NCBI GenBank assembly: GCA_029976805.1
Contig: JAPOLY010000006.1
Location: forward strand, 1-63,863
Direction of reading: 5' to 3'
DNA: 63,863 bases
Source of the DNA: a bacterium
GTDB taxonomy: Bacteria; Planctomycetota; UBA8108; UBA1146
Position numbers and translations under genes: made by a program. The notes under the pieces were generated by a model, which worked only from the letters and a program-made list of their open reading frames with translations, was not told where the DNA came from and made no database searches. Shown one piece after another: positions 14,607 to 54,440 of the stretch (its first letter is position 1; each line of letters opens with the position of its first letter).

Positions 14607-15274
14607 TGGAGCGACTGTCGTTTTCACCGAAGCTCGTCGTTTTTGATCTCGATGGAACCCTCATCGATTCCATCGGCGACATCGCCTCGGCGGTAAATCG
14701 CTTCCGAAACTCCCGAGGTGGATCAGTTCTCACAGAGGAGAAGGTCAGAGGAGCAGTGGGGCACGGCGCCCGAGAGCTGTGCAAAGCACTTCTGACAGAC
14801 CTCGCCATGGCGGACGAGAGCACTGAAGATCTGTATCAGGCATTCCGGGCCATCTACATTGCAGAAGCGGGACTCCCAGATCACCAGATTCGCTGGCTAC
14901 CCGGGGCTCTCGAGTTGCTCCAGCATCTGAATCAGCGACAGATCGCCGGTGCCATTCTGACCAACAAGCCACGAAGGGTCACCGAAGTACTGAAGCCACA
15001 ACTGACGAAGGCTTTTGCGTGGAAACAGATCTTCTGTCCGGAGGATGCCGGTACTCCCAAACCGGACCCCGCGGGACTCCAACAGCTGATGGATTTGAAT
15101 CAGTGCCGGGCCGATCAGGTGATCTATGTCGGCGATTCTGCCGTCGATTTTTCAACCGGAAAAGCCGCCGGAGTCCTGACACTGGGTCTCCGGGGAGGTT
15201 ATGGTCAAATCACGCCTCCAGAACCGGATCACTGGATGGCCGAGATTTCAGAAATGATTCCGCTCATCGACTGA
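14606..15274 (+). CDS. gph: HAD-superfamily phosphoglycolate phosphatase-like hydrolase
   Basis: 222 residues. Motif I is VVFDLDGTLIDS (nucleophile Asp and acid Asp), motif II is ILTNKPRR, and motif III/IV is in the stretch PKPDPAGL...IYVGDSAVDFSTGKAAG. The helical cap lies between motifs I and II. This matches the Gph/PGP branch, which removes phosphate from 2-phosphoglycolate formed during repair of oxidised DNA ends. It shares one base with the ccsA stop (TAATG). The endonuclease IV gene follows 21 nt later, and its repair chemistry is a source of phosphoglycolate. Confidence 0.85.
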   Translation: MERLSFSPKLVVFDLDGTLIDSIGDIASAVNRFRNSRGGSVLTEEKVRGAVGHGARELCKALLTDLAMADESTEDLYQAFRAIYIAEAGLPDHQIRWLPGALELLQHLNQRQIAGAILTNKPRRVTEVLKPQLTKAFAWKQIFCPEDAGTPKPDPAGLQQLMDLNQCRADQVIYVGDSAVDFSTGKAAGVLTLGLRGGYGQITPPEPDHWMAEISEMIPLID

Positions 15275-15295: not shown

Positions 15296-16204
15296 ATGCC
15301 CACCGCCACCGCTGGACAGAGAAAACTGCGCAAAAGCTTCAAGAACACTGAAGACCGGAATTGCCTTGGCAGCCATTTGTCAGTTTCCGGAGGTCCCTGG
15401 AAAGCCGTCGAGGAAGCGATCGAGCTGGAGATCCGGGCACTGCAGATCTTCACCAAAAATGCCAGTCGTTGGGTACAGAAACCCATCGACCCCAAGCATG
15501 TCGAGAAGTTTCATGCCGCCATCGAAGAATGGGGTGCCCATCCCCTCCTCAGCCACGACTCCTACCTGATCAATCTCGCCTCTCCCAAGGAGGAGCTGTT
15601 CCAAAAATCCATCGCCGCCTTCGCCGATGAATTAGAGCGGGCAGAGTTGCTCGGCCTCGATTTCCTCGTCATGCATCCCGGCGCCCATGTTGGCAGTGGA
15701 GTCGAAGCAGGCATCGAACGCATCGCTGCAGGCATGCGGGAAGCCTTTGATCGGGTCCCCCATGTCAAAACCCGGGTCCTCCTCGAAAACACCGCGGGTG
15801 GTGGGTCCACCATGGGAAGATCCTTCGAGGAACTGCGGGATCTCCTTGCCGCCATCGACACTCCAGAACGAACCGGAACCTGCATCGACACCTGCCACAT
15901 GTTTGCCGCCGGCTACGAACTGAGAACCGAAGAGGGCTATCAGGAAACGATGAAACAACTCGACAAGATTCTGGGGGCCCGCCGCGTCTTTGCGCTTCAC
16001 CTCAATGACAGCAAAGGTGATCTCGGCAGTCACCTCGATCGTCACATGCACATCGGTGATGGCCTGATCGGCAAAAAGGGGTTCCAGTTCGTCATGCAAG
16101 ACGATCGCTTCGCCGGTATTCCCAAGATTCTCGAAACTCCCAAGGTTGAAGACATGGATCAACAGAACCTTTCATTGCTGGAACAACTGGCGAAAAAGAA
16201 ATGA
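15296..16204 (+). CDS. nfo: Deoxyribonuclease IV (AP endonuclease, Nfo)
   Basis: 302 residues. It cuts DNA 5' to abasic sites in base-excision repair. Seen in order: GSHLSVSGG with the first metal His, ALQIFTKNASRW, HDSYLINLASP, LDFLVMHPGAHVGSG, VLLENTAGGGSTMGRSFEEL, CIDTCHMFAAGY, FALHLNDSKGDLGSHLDRHMHIGDG, and IPKILETPK. The zinc ligands of the TIM-barrel family (His, Glu, Asp, His) are all in place. Length is close to that of E. coli Nfo plus a short basic N-terminus. The gene ends TGA 7 nt before the start of the TGA-interrupted small gene. Confidence 0.95.
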   Translation: MPTATAGQRKLRKSFKNTEDRNCLGSHLSVSGGPWKAVEEAIELEIRALQIFTKNASRWVQKPIDPKHVEKFHAAIEEWGAHPLLSHDSYLINLASPKEELFQKSIAAFADELERAELLGLDFLVMHPGAHVGSGVEAGIERIAAGMREAFDRVPHVKTRVLLENTAGGGSTMGRSFEELRDLLAAIDTPERTGTCIDTCHMFAAGYELRTEEGYQETMKQLDKILGARRVFALHLNDSKGDLGSHLDRHMHIGDGLIGKKGFQFVMQDDRFAGIPKILETPKVEDMDQQNLSLLEQLAKKK

Positions 16205-16211
16205 GGCTTTC

Positions 16212-16538
16212 TTGAACCAGGAACTTCAACCGGAAGACTGGGTTCCCATCGGCAAAGGTGGCCCCTCCGAGATTCGAGCCCTTGCCCAGGCGCTCGAAAC
16301 CGCCGGTATCGCCCCCATGGTCCAGACGGTTCCCGGAGGCTGAGGAACCCAACTGATTCTCGCGGTCGCGAGAGCCGATCTTCCCGCCACCCAACAGGTT
16401 CTTGCAGCTCTCGCCGCTGAGAATGCTCCAGAAGGATCACACGAACCGGAAACTGACGGCTCTGCCTGCCCCGCCTGTATGACCAGTATTCCCGCAGAAG
16501 CAGAAGAGTGCCCCGATTGCGGGATTCGCCTTCGGTAA
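16212..16538 (+). CDS. Candidate selenoprotein: DUF2007-like domain plus C-terminal zinc ribbon, one in-frame TGA (Sec44)
   Basis: One continuous frame of 108 codons from TTG 16212 (GAGG 5 nt upstream) to TAA 16536. It is interrupted only by TGA at 16341-16343, codon 44. Residues 18-68 (S-E-I-R-A-L-A-Q-A-L-E-T-A-G-I before the TGA; TQLILAVARADLPATQQVL after it) match the shape of DUF2007/GlnB-like small domains: helix, strand, strand, helix. Sec44 falls in the loop PGG-U-GTQ between strands. The C-terminus has C86PAC89 and C100PDC103G, a zinc ribbon. A hairpin with a GGUC loop begins 14 nt after the TGA (16358-16373). The gene follows nfo by 7 nt, at the end of the thioredoxin-cytochrome c run. 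Alternatives: a pseudogene or a base-call error. Confidence 0.65.
16355..16380 (+). promoter_or_regulatory. SECIS-like hairpin downstream of the in-frame TGA
   Basis: TCTCGC (16358-16363) pairs perfectly with GCGAGA (16368-16373) around the loop GGTC (16364-16367). A lower helix GAT/ATC (16355-16357 with 16378-16380) may extend it across a four-base bulge. The apical loop starts 20 nt after the TGA, within the usual 16-37 nt of bacterial SECIS elements, and has G at its first two positions. GGUC is also part of the SelB-binding loop of E. coli fdhF. The structure is read by eye. Confidence 0.6.
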
Positions 16539-16573
16539 ACCTCTGCCGATGACATCCGATTCTTGCTGAAACT

Positions 16574-17932
16574 TCATTCCTCTTCCCCAGGTCCGTAAAA
16601 CTTCTCCCGGGTCCCATGGAATAAACCATGAGCCTGATTCAGCTGCTCTGGATTGACTCCGGAGAGTTGGGCTAACGCCGTCCACTCTTCTTCAGAGCGC
16701 TGCCCCCATCCCATGGCACACAAACGCAACGCCAGAAACCTCACTCCCTGGGATGGATCGAGCCGTGCCGTTTCATCAAGAGTCTGCATCCACTCCAAAG
16801 GATAGGTCCCCGAAGAATCTCTCCCACCCAAAGCCCCATAGAGAACCCACAACCGGTAGGACTCTGAACGGGCGTCGTCACCCCTGCGATAGAGGAGTGG
16901 TTTCAATCGCTGTTCTCTGGCTCGATGGAAAGCGGTCAGTAATTCACTTCCCCGGTATTCGTTGCGGATGAAGAAATCTGCCCATTCATCCAGTACCGCA
17001 GCCAGTTGCTCTCCGTCCGCTTGCAGAAGGATTCCTTTTCCGACTTCCAACTGAGTCGGGATGTCCCGGGTACCGATTCTGGAAAGCACCTTTTGACGGA
17101 AACTGAAATCTTCACTCGAGTACAAGTGGGCGACGATACCCTGAGCAATTTTTTGAAACTCAGCATCATCCGATTCCAGCCAGTCGAGAGTCCATTGCTC
17201 CAACCACGGTGGTGTTTTCTGACTCATCTCTGATTGCAGTCCGCGGAGAACCACCTCTCTCCAGCGGGTCCGTATTGCCGATTCCTCTGAGTATTTCTCA
17301 GGCTCCGACAAAAAGTCGTCGATGAGTGAGAAGGACAGATTCCCATCGATTCCCATCGTGGAATCGAACCAACGATCCAAATGACCGAAATCCTCTAAAC
17401 CCTCTATCCACAAATCCACTGCCCACTCGAGAACTCCACGACGATCGATCCAGATTCCGGAAGGAATCGGATCCATCGACAACGCCGTTCCCAGAGCAAC
17501 CAGCAGAGCTCTCTTCTCGTAGAGAGTTCCCTGCCCTTCTGCCAGCAGTTGCAGCAGTTGATCCCCGATTCCGTTTTGGCATTCGAAGAGGTTTGTCAGT
17601 TCCTGTGCCACATCCGAACTGTACTTGCCCTTCTCGATCAGTCGCTGAAGAGGTTCACTCCAGGGACCGCTTCTCAAGGTGGAAACTGCTGAGGGTTTCG
17701 GAGTCGGGGTGACGGGCCCACTGGGATCGGCTGATTCATTCTCTTCGAAGATCTGATTCCCGGAATTCCCCGAAGACTCCGCAGCGGGTTCACTCTGGAT
17801 CAGTTCAAGACTGCCTTCGGAAGGATTCGTCAAATCGGGTCCGATCCTGTCGTGATCCCGGCCGACGTCGATGAACATCCACAGTGCCAGAATCATCGCC
17901 ATTGTCATCAGCAGAAGGGGAAGCCGCTTCAT
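16574..17932 (-). CDS. Membrane-anchored protein of unknown function
   Basis: 452 residues from ATG 17932, which has GGGAGG upstream and overlaps the TGA of the preceding gene (ATGA). An N-terminal hydrophobic segment at about residues 3-22 (LPLLLMTMAMILALWMFI) is a signal anchor. A Ser/Pro/Glu-rich linker follows to about residue 75, then about 370 residues of helical, Trp/Leu/Glu-rich sequence without recognisable motifs. It could be an alpha-solenoid, because helix-length units end in patterns such as LESDDAEFQKIAQGIVAHL. I do not recognise the family. It converges on the small selenoprotein gene. Confidence 0.65.
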   Translation of the reverse strand: MKRLPLLLMTMAMILALWMFIDVGRDHDRIGPDLTNPSEGSLELIQSEPAAESSGNSGNQIFEENESADPSGPVTPTPKPSAVSTLRSGPWSEPLQRLIEKGKYSSDVAQELTNLFECQNGIGDQLLQLLAEGQGTLYEKRALLVALGTALSMDPIPSGIWIDRRGVLEWAVDLWIEGLEDFGHLDRWFDSTMGIDGNLSFSLIDDFLSEPEKYSEESAIRTRWREVVLRGLQSEMSQKTPPWLEQWTLDWLESDDAEFQKIAQGIVAHLYSSEDFSFRQKVLSRIGTRDIPTQLEVGKGILLQADGEQLAAVLDEWADFFIRNEYRGSELLTAFHRAREQRLKPLLYRRGDDARSESYRLWVLYGALGGRDSSGTYPLEWMQTLDETARLDPSQGVRFLALRLCAMGWGQRSEEEWTALAQLSGVNPEQLNQAHGLFHGTREKFYGPGEEE

Positions 17933-18444
17933 GGAGTCCTCCCGAGACAATCAGTGCTATCCCCGCTCCCTGGACAGGGCAAAGAGGTCCAATGATCGAC
18001 GCTGTTCCACTGAATCGCCTCTCCTGAAGGAAGGCAGGCCCGACTCCAGCAAAAGATAAAAAAGTTGGTGCACTCACAGTGCAGTTTTTGCTGAAGCACC
18101 GCACGGGTCTGCCTCTCGAACAGACAGCAGCCATTTCGGGGAGTCACGACCGCATGGGCCGGTGTCAGCAAGACCCACAGTGGACACTGGGGCTCGGGGA
18201 AGGTCACGGTGGATCCCCAACGCTCGAGCAGCAGTTTGAGTGGCATGTCAGAGCAGGGATTGCTGACCGGTGAAACCACCTGATCCACAGCAATCTGCTG
18301 CGTTCCCAGATTCGGACAGTCCTGCTGACAGTCCATTCCCACGGGAATCTGTCCCTCCAGCGGATCACACAAGACAAACAGGAATACGACAGCAACCAAA
18401 CCGGGAATGCCTCCCCGACCGCGAAAACTCATCACTTGAAACAA
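17929..18444 (-). CDS. Cysteine-rich exported protein of unknown function
   Basis: 171 residues if translation starts at TTG 18444, 7 nt after GGGAGGAG; an ATG five codons later at 18432 is the alternative. A hydrophobic signal-like stretch, LVAVVFLFVLC, is followed by a mature part with 15 or more cysteines (for example CQQDCPN, NGCCLF, HCECTNFF, WSRACLP). Many are in pairs, and CPLWVLLTPAHAVV recalls a thioredoxin-like strand-helix. This suggests disulfides or a metal site in the periplasm, next to the DsbD gene. Its TGA overlaps the next ATG. The ribosome-binding site is buried in the terminator-like hairpin just upstream. Confidence 0.55.
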   Translation of the reverse strand: MFQVMSFRGRGGIPGLVAVVFLFVLCDPLEGQIPVGMDCQQDCPNLGTQQIAVDQVVSPVSNPCSDMPLKLLLERWGSTVTFPEPQCPLWVLLTPAHAVVTPRNGCCLFERQTRAVLQQKLHCECTNFFIFCWSRACLPSGEAIQWNSVDHWTSLPCPGSGDSTDCLGRTP

Positions 18445-18487
18445 AAACAAACTCCTCCCTTCGGGCGGTACCGAGGGGAGGAGTTTG
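18441..18487 (-). terminator. Terminator-like hairpin after dsbD that also buries a ribosome-binding site
   Basis: On the minus strand a perfect 12-bp stem, CAAACTCCTCCC (18487-18476) with GGGAGGAGTTTG (18459-18448), closes a 16-nt loop and is followed by TTTTTGTTT. This is a textbook intrinsic terminator about 60 nt beyond the dsbD stop. The descending arm contains GGGAGGAG, the best Shine-Dalgarno for the next gene (TTG 18444), so the fold would also block its translation. Confidence 0.75.
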
Positions 18488-18549
18488 CAGGGAATCAAAT
18501 CTTCTGTCAGCGAAGAGATCGCATGGATCGTCCGTGTAAGGTCAGTGTT

Positions 18550-21450
18550 TCAGGATTCTTCCCGTTCATTTCCTTCAACATTGAGTCTCAACTTCAGGGG
18601 TATGGCAAAGGTGCGCAGACGGTCATCCCCGTCATAGATACCCCCGACCACCCGAGCTCTGAGAACGTACTCACCCTGCAAATCATCGCCGACCCGGAAG
18701 GTGGCAAAAGCGGAGAAATCTCCATTGAGTGCAGAGACTTCCGTTCCCTGATAGGTCGCCTTTTCTTCTCCCTGATAGGTCCAGGCACTCTCACGGGTCA
18801 GCACCGTGTAGTCCTTGCCCTTCTCGCGGATCTCCAATCCTTCGATCTGAATCCGACTCTCAAAAGCAGGGCGGTCCGTCAGGCCCTGATCGAGGAAGGA
18901 GATAAACTGCTCAGAACTATTGGTGAATGATTCCCGTGCCACTTCGAGCTGGTCACGACTGTCGAGCACGATGTAGGTCGGGTTCGCATAGTATCCGGTG
19001 ATGCGGATCTGCTGCTCCCGGTAGGTCGCCTCGATCTCACTGGTAGCGTCGTCGGTATAGATCTCAAAGAGTTCGTATTGGCTGAGCAACTGCTCAACTT
19101 CAGACTCGCGGAAAATGCCATTTTCCATGAGTCGGCAATTCTGTCAGGTATGCCCCGTGAAATTAAGGAACAGCGGTTTTCGCGGCCGCTCTCCTGACTC
19201 CATCTCCTGGCGGACTTTTTCGAGCTCGGCGACGAAGTCCACATCTCCTTCACGATCGAGGTGCTTCCACGGCAGGGAGGCTTTCTGGTGAAGACTGGGG
19301 ACCAGTAACTGGGCCTCAATGTTCTCGTTCATGCGCCAACCTGTGACCGCATAGAAGCAACTGCCCGCACCCAACAGGGTCAGCAACAGCAATCCGCCGC
19401 GACCCGCCGAAATCGATTTGACGGGAGAGTCGTGGGGAAAGCGCAACTTGCCGATGATGTTGAGCGCCATCGCGACCAGAGTGAGCCCCCAGATCGCCAT
19501 GATCACTTCACGGTTGACGACGTGACCAAAGCGCCAGTAGGTCGCCACGGCACTGAAGAACTTCCACGCCGCCAGCAGCTCGATGAAACCGAGGACCACC
19601 TTGACGGTGGAGAGCCAGCCGCCTGAGCGGGGCAAACCAGTGAGCATCTTTGGGAACAGGGCCAACAGCACAAAGGGGAAAGCAATCGTCGAGCTGAAGG
19701 CGAGCATCCCCACCGCGGCGAAACCGGGGCCCTCTCCTGCAGCCAGGGCCAACAGGGCGGCAACGATCGGTCCCACACAGGTAAAGGTGGTCACTGCGAA
19801 GACCAGTCCCATCACGAGAACACTGGCCGCACCTCCGCCCCCTCCTCCTCCACCCACACGGTTGCGGATGAAGGCCGGCAGCTGGATGTCGTAGTAACCG
19901 AACAAGCTGAACCCGAAGACGATGAAGAGGACACCGATGGCCAGATTGACGTAGCCATTGGTGGCCATGAAGTTGGCGCCTTCCTCACCGAGGAGAGCGG
20001 ACAACAGGAAACCGAGAGAAGTAAAGGAGACGACGATGCCTGCCCCAAACAGGGCGGCCAGACCGATGACCCGTGAGCGACTCTCATGGGCCTGTTTGGT
20101 GAACACGCTGACGGTGATCGGAATCATCGGATAGACGCAGGGAGTCACCAGTGCAAGGAACGCTCCACTGATGGCCAGCAGAATCACGCCCAGCAATCCC
20201 TGATCTTCAGTTTCAGACTGAATGTCCCCACGGAATGCGGGGATTCTCTTTTCCGGGGAAACCTTGCCATCGATCCGCAGGGTGACGATGTCTCCGCTTC
20301 CAATGGTGGAACCGGCTTCCAGAGTTGCGGTCAACTGCAAGTCATCATTGGCGAAGGTGGCCACGCGCGGGTCGCTCTCCTCAGCCAGCCCTGTAGCGGA
20401 ACTTTCCTCCGCCGCAGATCCGCTTCCCACAGGAAGGTCGAGGTTCAATCTCTCTTCAGGCAGACACATCATGGCGTCGCAGGACATCGACTCGACGATC
20501 AGCGGCAGAGTGCCCGAGGTCAGTTCTTCTTCGCCCTCATATTGGAGGGTGACCTCGAAGCGGGCCTTGCGCTGGTGCTTGATGCTGTTTCCACCGATCA
20601 GGGGATCAAAACCCTTGTAGGGTGCGGTCAGCTCCTTGACCTCGACCACCTTCAGGGAAGATCCATCGGCAGTGAGGAATCGGGTCGGAGTGCCATTTTC
20701 GGGATTCATTTCAAGGCCGTAGATGTGCCAGCCCCGTTCGATCTCCGCTCCGACTTCCACCTTGAAGGTTTCACCCGGGATCACTTTCCCGAGTGAGGGA
20801 ACGGTCCATTTCACGGGAGAATCATCCGCCTGGAAGGTCGCTGTCGCCGACTCTTTTCCGGGGGACTCGGTTCCCACTGTCACTTCTGTGCTGAGTACGA
20901 CCGTATTGGGCAGCAAGCACTCCTTGGCATCGCAGGCCTGGTAGGTCACGGAAACCGTTACCGTCCGCGGTCCCGGCTCCGCACCCTCCGGAGCACGAAG
21001 AGGGATCCTGAAGATCGTCTTTCCTTCGTGTTCGAGATAATACTCTTCACCCACTTCGCGCTCATGGGGCTCGGGTTCCGAGACCTCTCCGTCAAAGAGC
21101 AGGTCCTTCGATTCGAGAACCACGATGGAGGTGGCCACTCCCCACTCCGGATCCTGATTCAGGCCATAGATATGCCAGCCCCGCTCCATCGCGGCCTCGA
21201 GCTCCAGTTGGACAAGCCCACCCGGGGCCAGACCTTCTGCTTTTTTGAGGCTCACGGTGACCGGATTGTCCGATCCGAAGATGGCATCACCAAATCCACC
21301 GTCTCCAAATCCCCCAGCTCCCAATCCGTCCTGCTCCAATTGGTCGAGCAGCCCTCCTCCCGCCCCGGGCTGGGCCGGCAGGGTTTGATGGAAGCCTGGC
21401 AGGGTCAACATCGTGATCAGGGTCAGGATCCCCAGCAGGATATTTTTCAT
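18550..21450 (-). CDS. dsbD: Thiol:disulfide interchange protein DsbD, candidate selenoprotein with U-x-x-C active site (TGA at codon 769)
   Basis: 966 residues if the TGA at 19146-19144 is read through. Order: signal peptide (1-28); two DsbD N-terminal-type domains, each with its own cysteine pair (CDAKECLLP, CDAMMCLPEE); a CcdA-like membrane domain (about 430-700) with TPCVYPMIPIT and FTCVGPIVA; then a thioredoxin domain. The last begins KPLFLNFTGHT, then TGA, then QNCRLMENGIF. In DsbD homologues this position reads F-T-A-D/Y-x-C-x-x-C, so TGA replaces exactly the first active-site Cys and gives U769-Q-N-C772. The frame then stays open for 197 more codons, completing the thioredoxin fold (YELFEIYTDD...YANPTYIVLD) plus a beta-rich tail. 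DsbD passes electrons from cytoplasmic thioredoxin to periplasmic thiols. Start ATG 21450 has GAGGAG upstream. It is preceded by a glutaredoxin gene. Confidence 0.88.
19103..19133 (-). promoter_or_regulatory. SECIS-like hairpin inside dsbD, after the in-frame TGA
   Basis: In the mRNA sense, GACTC (19133-19129) pairs with GAGTC (19107-19103). A 3x3 internal loop (ATG/CGC) follows, then GAAAAT (19125-19120) pairs with ATTTTC (19116-19111) around the loop GGC. All eleven pairs are Watson-Crick. The apical loop starts 24 nt after the TGA, inside the 16-37 nt window for bacterial SECIS elements, and has GG at its first two positions. It lies wholly within coding sequence, as expected for bacteria. 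Confidence 0.78.
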
Positions 21451-52910: not shown

Positions 52911-54440
52911 TCAGACTCCATGGATGGATTGGACTTTACGATCGAGGTGATCCACAAAGATGGCGGGATCGAGTCCCTTGCCCACCGCTCTCTCGAGCAG
53001 GTCGAGGGGCATGAACTGCCGTCCCGGCCGGTGAATCCGCTCCCGCAGCCAGTCGAGGATTTCCCCGAAACGCCCGGCGGCCACTTCCTGATCGATGTCG
53101 ATCTCTTCAGAAATCGCCTGATGGAACTGGGCAGAGTAGAGCGATCCCAAGAGGTAGGTGGGGAAATATCCAAAGGCACCGAAGCTCCAGTGGATATCCT
53201 GCAGCACACCATCCTTGAAATTGGGCGGAGTCAGTCCAAGGTACGACTCCATCTTTTCATTCCACGCGGAGGGCAGATCGGCCACTTGCAAATCCCCGCT
53301 GAAGAGGGCCTGTTCCACTTCAAAACGGAGTGCGATATGCAGACCATAGGTGACCTCATCCGCATCCACTCGAATCAGTGACGGCTTTACAGGATTTACC
53401 GCGAGAGCCATGTCATTCGCGCTCACGTCTTCGAGAATCCTTGGGAAGTACTTCTTCATCAGTGGCAGGAAGTGAACCCAGAATGCTTCTGTCCTGCCGA
53501 TGTCATTTTCCCAAAATCGTGATTGCGATTCGTGGATTCCCAGTGAAATCGCGTCGCAGAGGGGCGTGTGTACCCACTTTTCTTCAAAACCCTGTTCGTA
53601 CATGGCGTGACCGGCCTCATGAATCACTCCGTAAAGGTTACTCGTGAAGTTGTCTTCGTAGACCCGGGTCGTGATCCTTACATCAAAGGGTGCCACGGGG
53701 GAGGTACAGAAGGGGTGAGACGTCAGATCGAGCCCTCCCTTGTCGAGGTCATATCCCAATTGGGTGGCCACCTCTTTGGAGAACTCCAGCTGCTTGTTCT
53801 TTTCCCAGGGTCCTCGGAAAAACTCTGGCTCCGGCAGTGCACGAGCAACGACCCGATCGATGATCTCCTTGAGTCCGGGAACGACCTGACGACAAATCTC
53901 ACTGAAGTTTGCACTGGTCATGCCACGCTCGTATTTGTTCATCAGTACGTCATAGAGACAGTCTTCATCATCGCGCAGGTATTCTGCTTCTGCTTTCTGA
54001 AGTTCAATCTGTCGCGACAGCATCGGTTCAAAGGCGGAGAAATCGTCCTGCTCCCGCGCCGCTTGCCAAGCCATGATGGACTTTGAATTCACTTCTGCAG
54101 ATTCGGTTGCATGCTGCACAGGAATTCTCAGGGATCGCTCATAGTCATGGCGAACCTCACGCACCAGCGCCTGAAGAGTCTCGTCCCCGGAAGAAAAAGC
54201 CGCTTCCTCTGCTCTTTCGATACATTCTCCGAGGGCCGGTTGCTGGGATCGTTCATGGGCAATCCCCGCCAGCTCGCCGAGAGCTTCAGCCCGCACTCCC
54301 CCACCACTCGATGGCATATGGGTTTCCTGATCCCAGGAGAGCACCGTCGAGGCATGGCTGATGAGGGCAATCTTTCTCAGGTGCTCACGCAGATCGGTGA
54401 TGGCTTCATGTTCGGTTTCGGTCACGTTTTCGGTGGTCAT
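52911..54440 (-). CDS. Metallocarboxypeptidase, peptidase family M32
   Basis: 509 residues. Family M32 (Taq carboxypeptidase) signature: the zinc motif GVIHEAGHAMYEQGF (HEAGH), preceded by HPFCTSPVAPFDVRITTRV and followed by ISLGIHESQSRFWENDIGR. Other family stretches are STVLSWDQETHMPSSGGGVR and DVQWSFG-like DIHWSFGAFGYFPTYLLGS. Cytoplasmic; removes C-terminal residues from peptides. ATGA overlap with tdk upstream; the flavoprotein gene begins 6 nt after its stop. Confidence 0.95.
   Translation of the reverse strand: MTTENVTETEHEAITDLREHLRKIALISHASTVLSWDQETHMPSSGGGVRAEALGELAGIAHERSQQPALGECIERAEEAAFSSGDETLQALVREVRHDYERSLRIPVQHATESAEVNSKSIMAWQAAREQDDFSAFEPMLSRQIELQKAEAEYLRDDEDCLYDVLMNKYERGMTSANFSEICRQVVPGLKEIIDRVVARALPEPEFFRGPWEKNKQLEFSKEVATQLGYDLDKGGLDLTSHPFCTSPVAPFDVRITTRVYEDNFTSNLYGVIHEAGHAMYEQGFEEKWVHTPLCDAISLGIHESQSRFWENDIGRTEAFWVHFLPLMKKYFPRILEDVSANDMALAVNPVKPSLIRVDADEVTYGLHIALRFEVEQALFSGDLQVADLPSAWNEKMESYLGLTPPNFKDGVLQDIHWSFGAFGYFPTYLLGSLYSAQFHQAISEEIDIDQEVAAGRFGEILDWLRERIHRPGRQFMPLDLLERAVGKGLDPAIFVDHLDRKVQSIHGV

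Follow-up and report, generated by a model that had tools for sequence, protein, structure and literature searches.

Two in-frame TGA codons of the analysed DNA, one in a gene for a short zinc-ribbon protein and one in dsbD, are read here as selenocysteine (Sec) codons, with a probability of about 0.95. Both would be decoded by SelB and a Sec-tRNA(UCA), directed by a stem-loop whose apical loop, beginning with GG, lies 20 or 24 nt past the TGA. The DNA (the window) is a stretch of 63,863 nucleotides from a marine member of the Planctomycetota. Computation established that the Sec machinery is present, that the TGAs are conserved, that Sec aligns with Cys and that the hairpin is under constraint. 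The actual insertion of Sec at both TGAs and the biochemical roles of both proteins are presumed. The features of the locus are given in the table.

Table. Features of the locus that carries the two in-frame TGA codons. Coordinates are those of the window; +, forward strand; -, reverse strand.
Feature	Coordinates	Strand	Description	Basis
nfo	15296..16204	+	endonuclease IV; plain-stop TGA; just upstream of the zinc-ribbon gene	
Zinc-ribbon gene	16212..16538	+	108-aa zinc-ribbon (seleno)protein, relative of NF049953 (DG); TTG start, GAGG 5 nt upstream, stop TAA	
In-frame TGA	16341..16343	+	read as Sec, residue 44 (PGG-U-GT) of the zinc-ribbon protein	TGA conservation, aligned Cys
SECIS-like hairpin	16357..16374	+	7 bp, apical loop GGUC at 16364-16367	folding, conservation
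Zinc ribbon	16467..16520	+	CPxC...CPDC (C86, C89, C100, C103)	invariant Cys columns, weak Pfam zinc-ribbon matches
ORF	16574..17950	-	458 aa; lies between the zinc-ribbon gene and dsbD; conserved in the family	
Cys-rich protein gene	17929..18498	-	probably secreted product; between the two selenoprotein genes, adjoins dsbD	
dsbD	18550..21450	-	DsbD_N, DsbD_TM, C-terminal thioredoxin (gamma) domain, extra beta-rich C-terminal domain; TGA plain stop	predicted ATG start at 21450
SECIS-like hairpin	19103..19133	-	apical loop GGC at 19117-19119	folding
In-frame TGA	19144..19146	-	read as Sec (T-U-Q-N-C, UxxC) in dsbD	alignment with first Cys of E. coli DsbD-gamma CxxC

The earlier note on this DNA had placed two in-frame TGAs on opposite strands in convergent frames, each followed by a hairpin with GG at the start of its loop. 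The positions and orientation of the TGAs were found again, and folding gave the same loops, which begin 20 nt (GGUC) and 24 nt (GGC) past the TGA. The note had also supposed that the lineage decodes Sec through SelB. This agrees with the gene content of the genome, which carries SelB (365 bits, cut-off 242), SelA (528 bits), a tRNA-Sec with anticodon UCA and a SelD whose gene contains a TGA. The genes selA, selD and selC are clustered on one contig (C61). The selD gene (L086; G000:C61:11104-12027) has one in-frame TGA, in the motif CAGUAAK. All of selA, selB, selC and selD are found, so the genome has the bacterial Sec-decoding trait. The absence of selB and selC from closely related complete genomes had been named beforehand as evidence against Sec; SelB and tRNA-Sec are present.

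The machinery is also found in the genomes that carry related genes. SelA scores over its cut-off in 38 of the 41 genomes with a TGA in DsbD and in 37 of the 57 others (Fisher P 0.0014, uncorrected for kinship). SelA or SelB is over its cut-off in every tested genome with a Sec form of the zinc-ribbon protein, and SelB is present in 7/7 more distant genomes tested with such a form. Three drafts with a TGA in DsbD (G015, G023, G087) have no SelA or SelB match over cut-off, which may reflect draft incompleteness.

TGA is used as a plain stop elsewhere in the window, as the earlier note had said. It ends nfo (16202-16204), gph (15272-15274) and also dsbD itself (18550-18552). Since dsbD has both an in-frame TGA and a terminal TGA stop, one mRNA would use UGA both ways. 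This bears on two alternatives. The first, that TGA is decoded as another residue (e.g. Trp or Cys) through reassignment of the code or unspecific readthrough, is the least probable of those considered here and is given hardly any weight. It could draw on one relative, L105, with TGG (Trp) where other relatives have TGA; against it, TGA works as a stop for neighbouring genes and for dsbD, the genome has tRNA-Sec, SelA, SelB and SelD, and other homologues have Cys at the aligned position. The second takes the two TGAs for ordinary stops or sequencing errors and the frames downstream for remnants or separate genes. The normal use of TGA as a stop in the window and the frequency of bSECIS-like hairpins by chance would fit it. 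It is nevertheless very improbable: many genera, assembled independently, share the same TGA and have a conserved protein downstream of it, and a thioredoxin domain broken at its active-site Cys, where aligned homologues have Cys, is the classical signature of Sec.

The conservation that favours Sec codons was followed in both genes. The zinc-ribbon gene has matches in 16 of 98 planctomycetotal genomes, and 14 of these matches contain a single TGA. The TGA is kept in 14 of the 15 full-length relatives; L031 is the full-length relative without it, and the match of L034 covers the zinc ribbon only. A profile search of 199 genomes with NF049953 added Sec forms from further genera, and also Cys forms with Cys at the Sec column. 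The TGA is likewise kept in distant families, at 27-36% identity. The Cys columns of the zinc ribbon are invariant in 23 sequences, and an orthologue (L107) has ATG at the place aligned with the TTG start of the window gene. In dsbD, U stands at UxxC in 27/27 inspected TGA-bearing loci, and Cys stands there in two others.

Two relatives of the zinc-ribbon gene are recorded separately. In L105:1501-1818 (-), genome G147, TGG replaces TGA, the codons CTC-GCG-GTC-GCG are intact and SelB is encoded in the genome; this is either a fossil SECIS or a base-call error. L088 and its relatives (family f47) are Cys homologues in which a second Cys-pair region, absent from the window protein, is present at the N-terminus.

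The claim that such pairs of TGA and hairpin exceed chance stood in part only. The bSECIS model requires an apical loop of 3-9 nt, with G in its first two bases, 16-37 nt after the UGA (PMC13188914). Both predicted hairpins satisfy it. The chance rate was taken from all TGAs of the real window, on both strands, in place of shuffled coding sequence. The loose bSECIS test is passed by 475 of the 2514 TGA triplets (18.9%, both strands), and the strict test (GG loop and at least 5 bp) by 42/2514 (1.7%). Hairpins are thus common after arbitrary TGAs and alone prove little; this part of the claim fell. It is the joint conservation of TGA, downstream protein and hairpin across genomes that goes beyond chance.

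The two hairpins differ in the signals that they carry. The zinc-ribbon hairpin has an unremarkable stability against composition-matched shuffles (z -0.5). The codons beneath it, CTC-GCG-GTC-GCG, are identical in 19/19 Sec genes; 18 other codon columns with a conserved amino acid have synonymous diversities of 0.28-0.77 in 17 cases and 0.12 in one (Gly43). The two outer pairs of the stem are changed on both sides in 13 cells, a score reached by 0/500 shuffles, which do not preserve relatedness; versions of the structure that were slid along the sequence also score lower. The dsbD hairpin is unusually stable for its composition (z -3.5 against shuffles). A hairpin is predicted in most dsbD loci, the stems being unlike each other, and covariation within the family is slight. 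No Rfam SECIS family matches in the window.

Every TGA in the window was checked for coding potential on its two sides, and no third Sec site emerged; the best non-overlapping junctions looked like the ends of genes or like non-coding frames lying upstream. The largest junction, at 52911 (-), is the end of a gene, presumably for an M32-type carboxypeptidase, followed by a separate oxidoreductase gene, and was rejected.

The identity of DsbD is given by Pfam matches (DsbD_TM PF02683, 3e-23; DsbD_N PF11412, 1e-11) and by a profile match of its C-terminal part to the DsbD gamma domain 1UC7 (E 1.3e-5). In the alignment with E. coli DsbD-gamma, the Sec column coincides with the first Cys of the CxxC. 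Foldseek matches of the predicted fold (mean pLDDT 81) are 2FWE and 1UC7, both C-terminal domains of DsbD. In the gamma thioredoxin domain, which is periplasmic, Sec would thus stand in for the first Cys and act as the attacking residue of the redox pair. By analogy with E. coli DsbD, the Sec-Cys pair would accept electrons from the membrane domain and hand them to the N-terminal domain, from which they would reach clients in the periplasm. Past the thioredoxin domain, an additional beta-rich domain (18550-18850, -) is conserved in the family.

The zinc-ribbon protein is modelled (mean pLDDT 77) with a predicted beta-alpha-beta-beta-alpha domain that would lie beside the four-Cys zinc ribbon; Sec is placed in the turn that joins two strands of this domain. 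Foldseek gave no match at E <=0.001 with this model. Weaker fold matches are to common alpha/beta arrangements (PII-like domains, a T3SS ring-building motif) and, being weak, no function was taken from them; that the protein acts in redox reactions or binds metal is no more than a guess.

The Cys-rich protein encoded between the two genes has many invariant Cys and is conserved beside dsbD across the family; it is a possible client of DsbD. The closest named records are marine Planctomycetota metagenome bins (84-99% identity). The convergent arrangement of the zinc-ribbon gene and dsbD recurs in several genera of the same family, so the closeness of the two genes is an inherited order. The earlier note had taken this nearness as mutual corroboration, which is superfluous: within one family the genes are syntenic, and a more distant genome (G057) has them on separate contigs. 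It is improbable that, in addition to Sec decoding, the two genes work as a single selenoprotein module and lie near each other because they share a pathway. The convergent placement retained in several genera would suit such a module, but the genes are on opposite strands with two others in between, G057 has them on different contigs, and many genomes with a Sec DsbD have no detectable zinc-ribbon partner.

Both Sec codons, on the reading adopted here, are best filed under kinds of selenoprotein already recorded, a Sec DsbD-gamma and a relative of DG; 119 selenoprotein families or subfamilies are listed in a review (PMC13188914). No planctomycete with either selenoprotein is mentioned, and Planctomycetota are not named as carriers of Sec DsbD, in the main text (figures and supplements apart) of the selenoprotein papers compared. 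The locus thus gives two well-supported selenoprotein genes, with a constraint on the SECIS at the DNA level, for a phylum scarcely mentioned in that literature, and Sec in the DsbD gamma domain is widespread among Planctomycetota. Standard gene calling with TGA as a stop would cut both genes: DsbD would lose its catalytic domain, and the zinc-ribbon protein would be reduced to 43 residues.

Selenoprotein DG, described in the deep-Sep paper (PMC12013277), corresponds to NF049953; its founding member is a Desulfosediminicola protein. The window protein matches this profile (E 8e-12, model positions 57-171) over the Sec region and the C-terminal zinc ribbon. Unlike DG, it lacks the N-terminal ~50 positions and scores 45 bits against a curated cut-off of 130 bits, which is reached by no planctomycetotal genome of the 199. 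Its motif is GUGT, against GUxG in DG (PMC13188914). Judged by sequence, the window protein is related to DG but divergent, and falls below the cut-off. A tentative and rather doubtful alternative is that the planctomycetotal zinc-ribbon protein represents a separate selenoprotein family, distinct from DG, whose peptide LAVA has been fixed across families by the SECIS stem (CUCGCGGUCGCG); if this were true, an RNA decoding signal would dictate protein sequence.

The hairpins resemble the bacterial SECIS of E. coli fdhF and fdnG in having a stem-loop just past the UGA with a G-rich apical loop within 16-37 nt; they differ from it in the length and the sequence of the stem. The window DsbD and E. 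coli DsbD (1UC7, 2FWE, 1VRS) share the order of domains, the thioredoxin fold and an aligned catalytic position, which is occupied by Sec, not Cys, in the former. A known counterpart of this Sec form belongs to cd02953, which we take to be the DsbD-gamma family. It was reported from GOS data in 2008 as "Trx-like 2 (Thiol disulfide interchange protein)", cd02953, with UxxC (PMC2398784); a thiol-disulfide interchange selenoprotein is also entered as PF13098, UxxC (PMC13188914). The window form is like the cd02953 selenoprotein in having Sec first in the CxxC of a domain of the DsbD-gamma type. It differs in that this domain is part of a complete DsbD, in which the DsbD_N region is duplicated and a further beta domain stands at the C-terminus, and in its wide occurrence in Planctomycetota.
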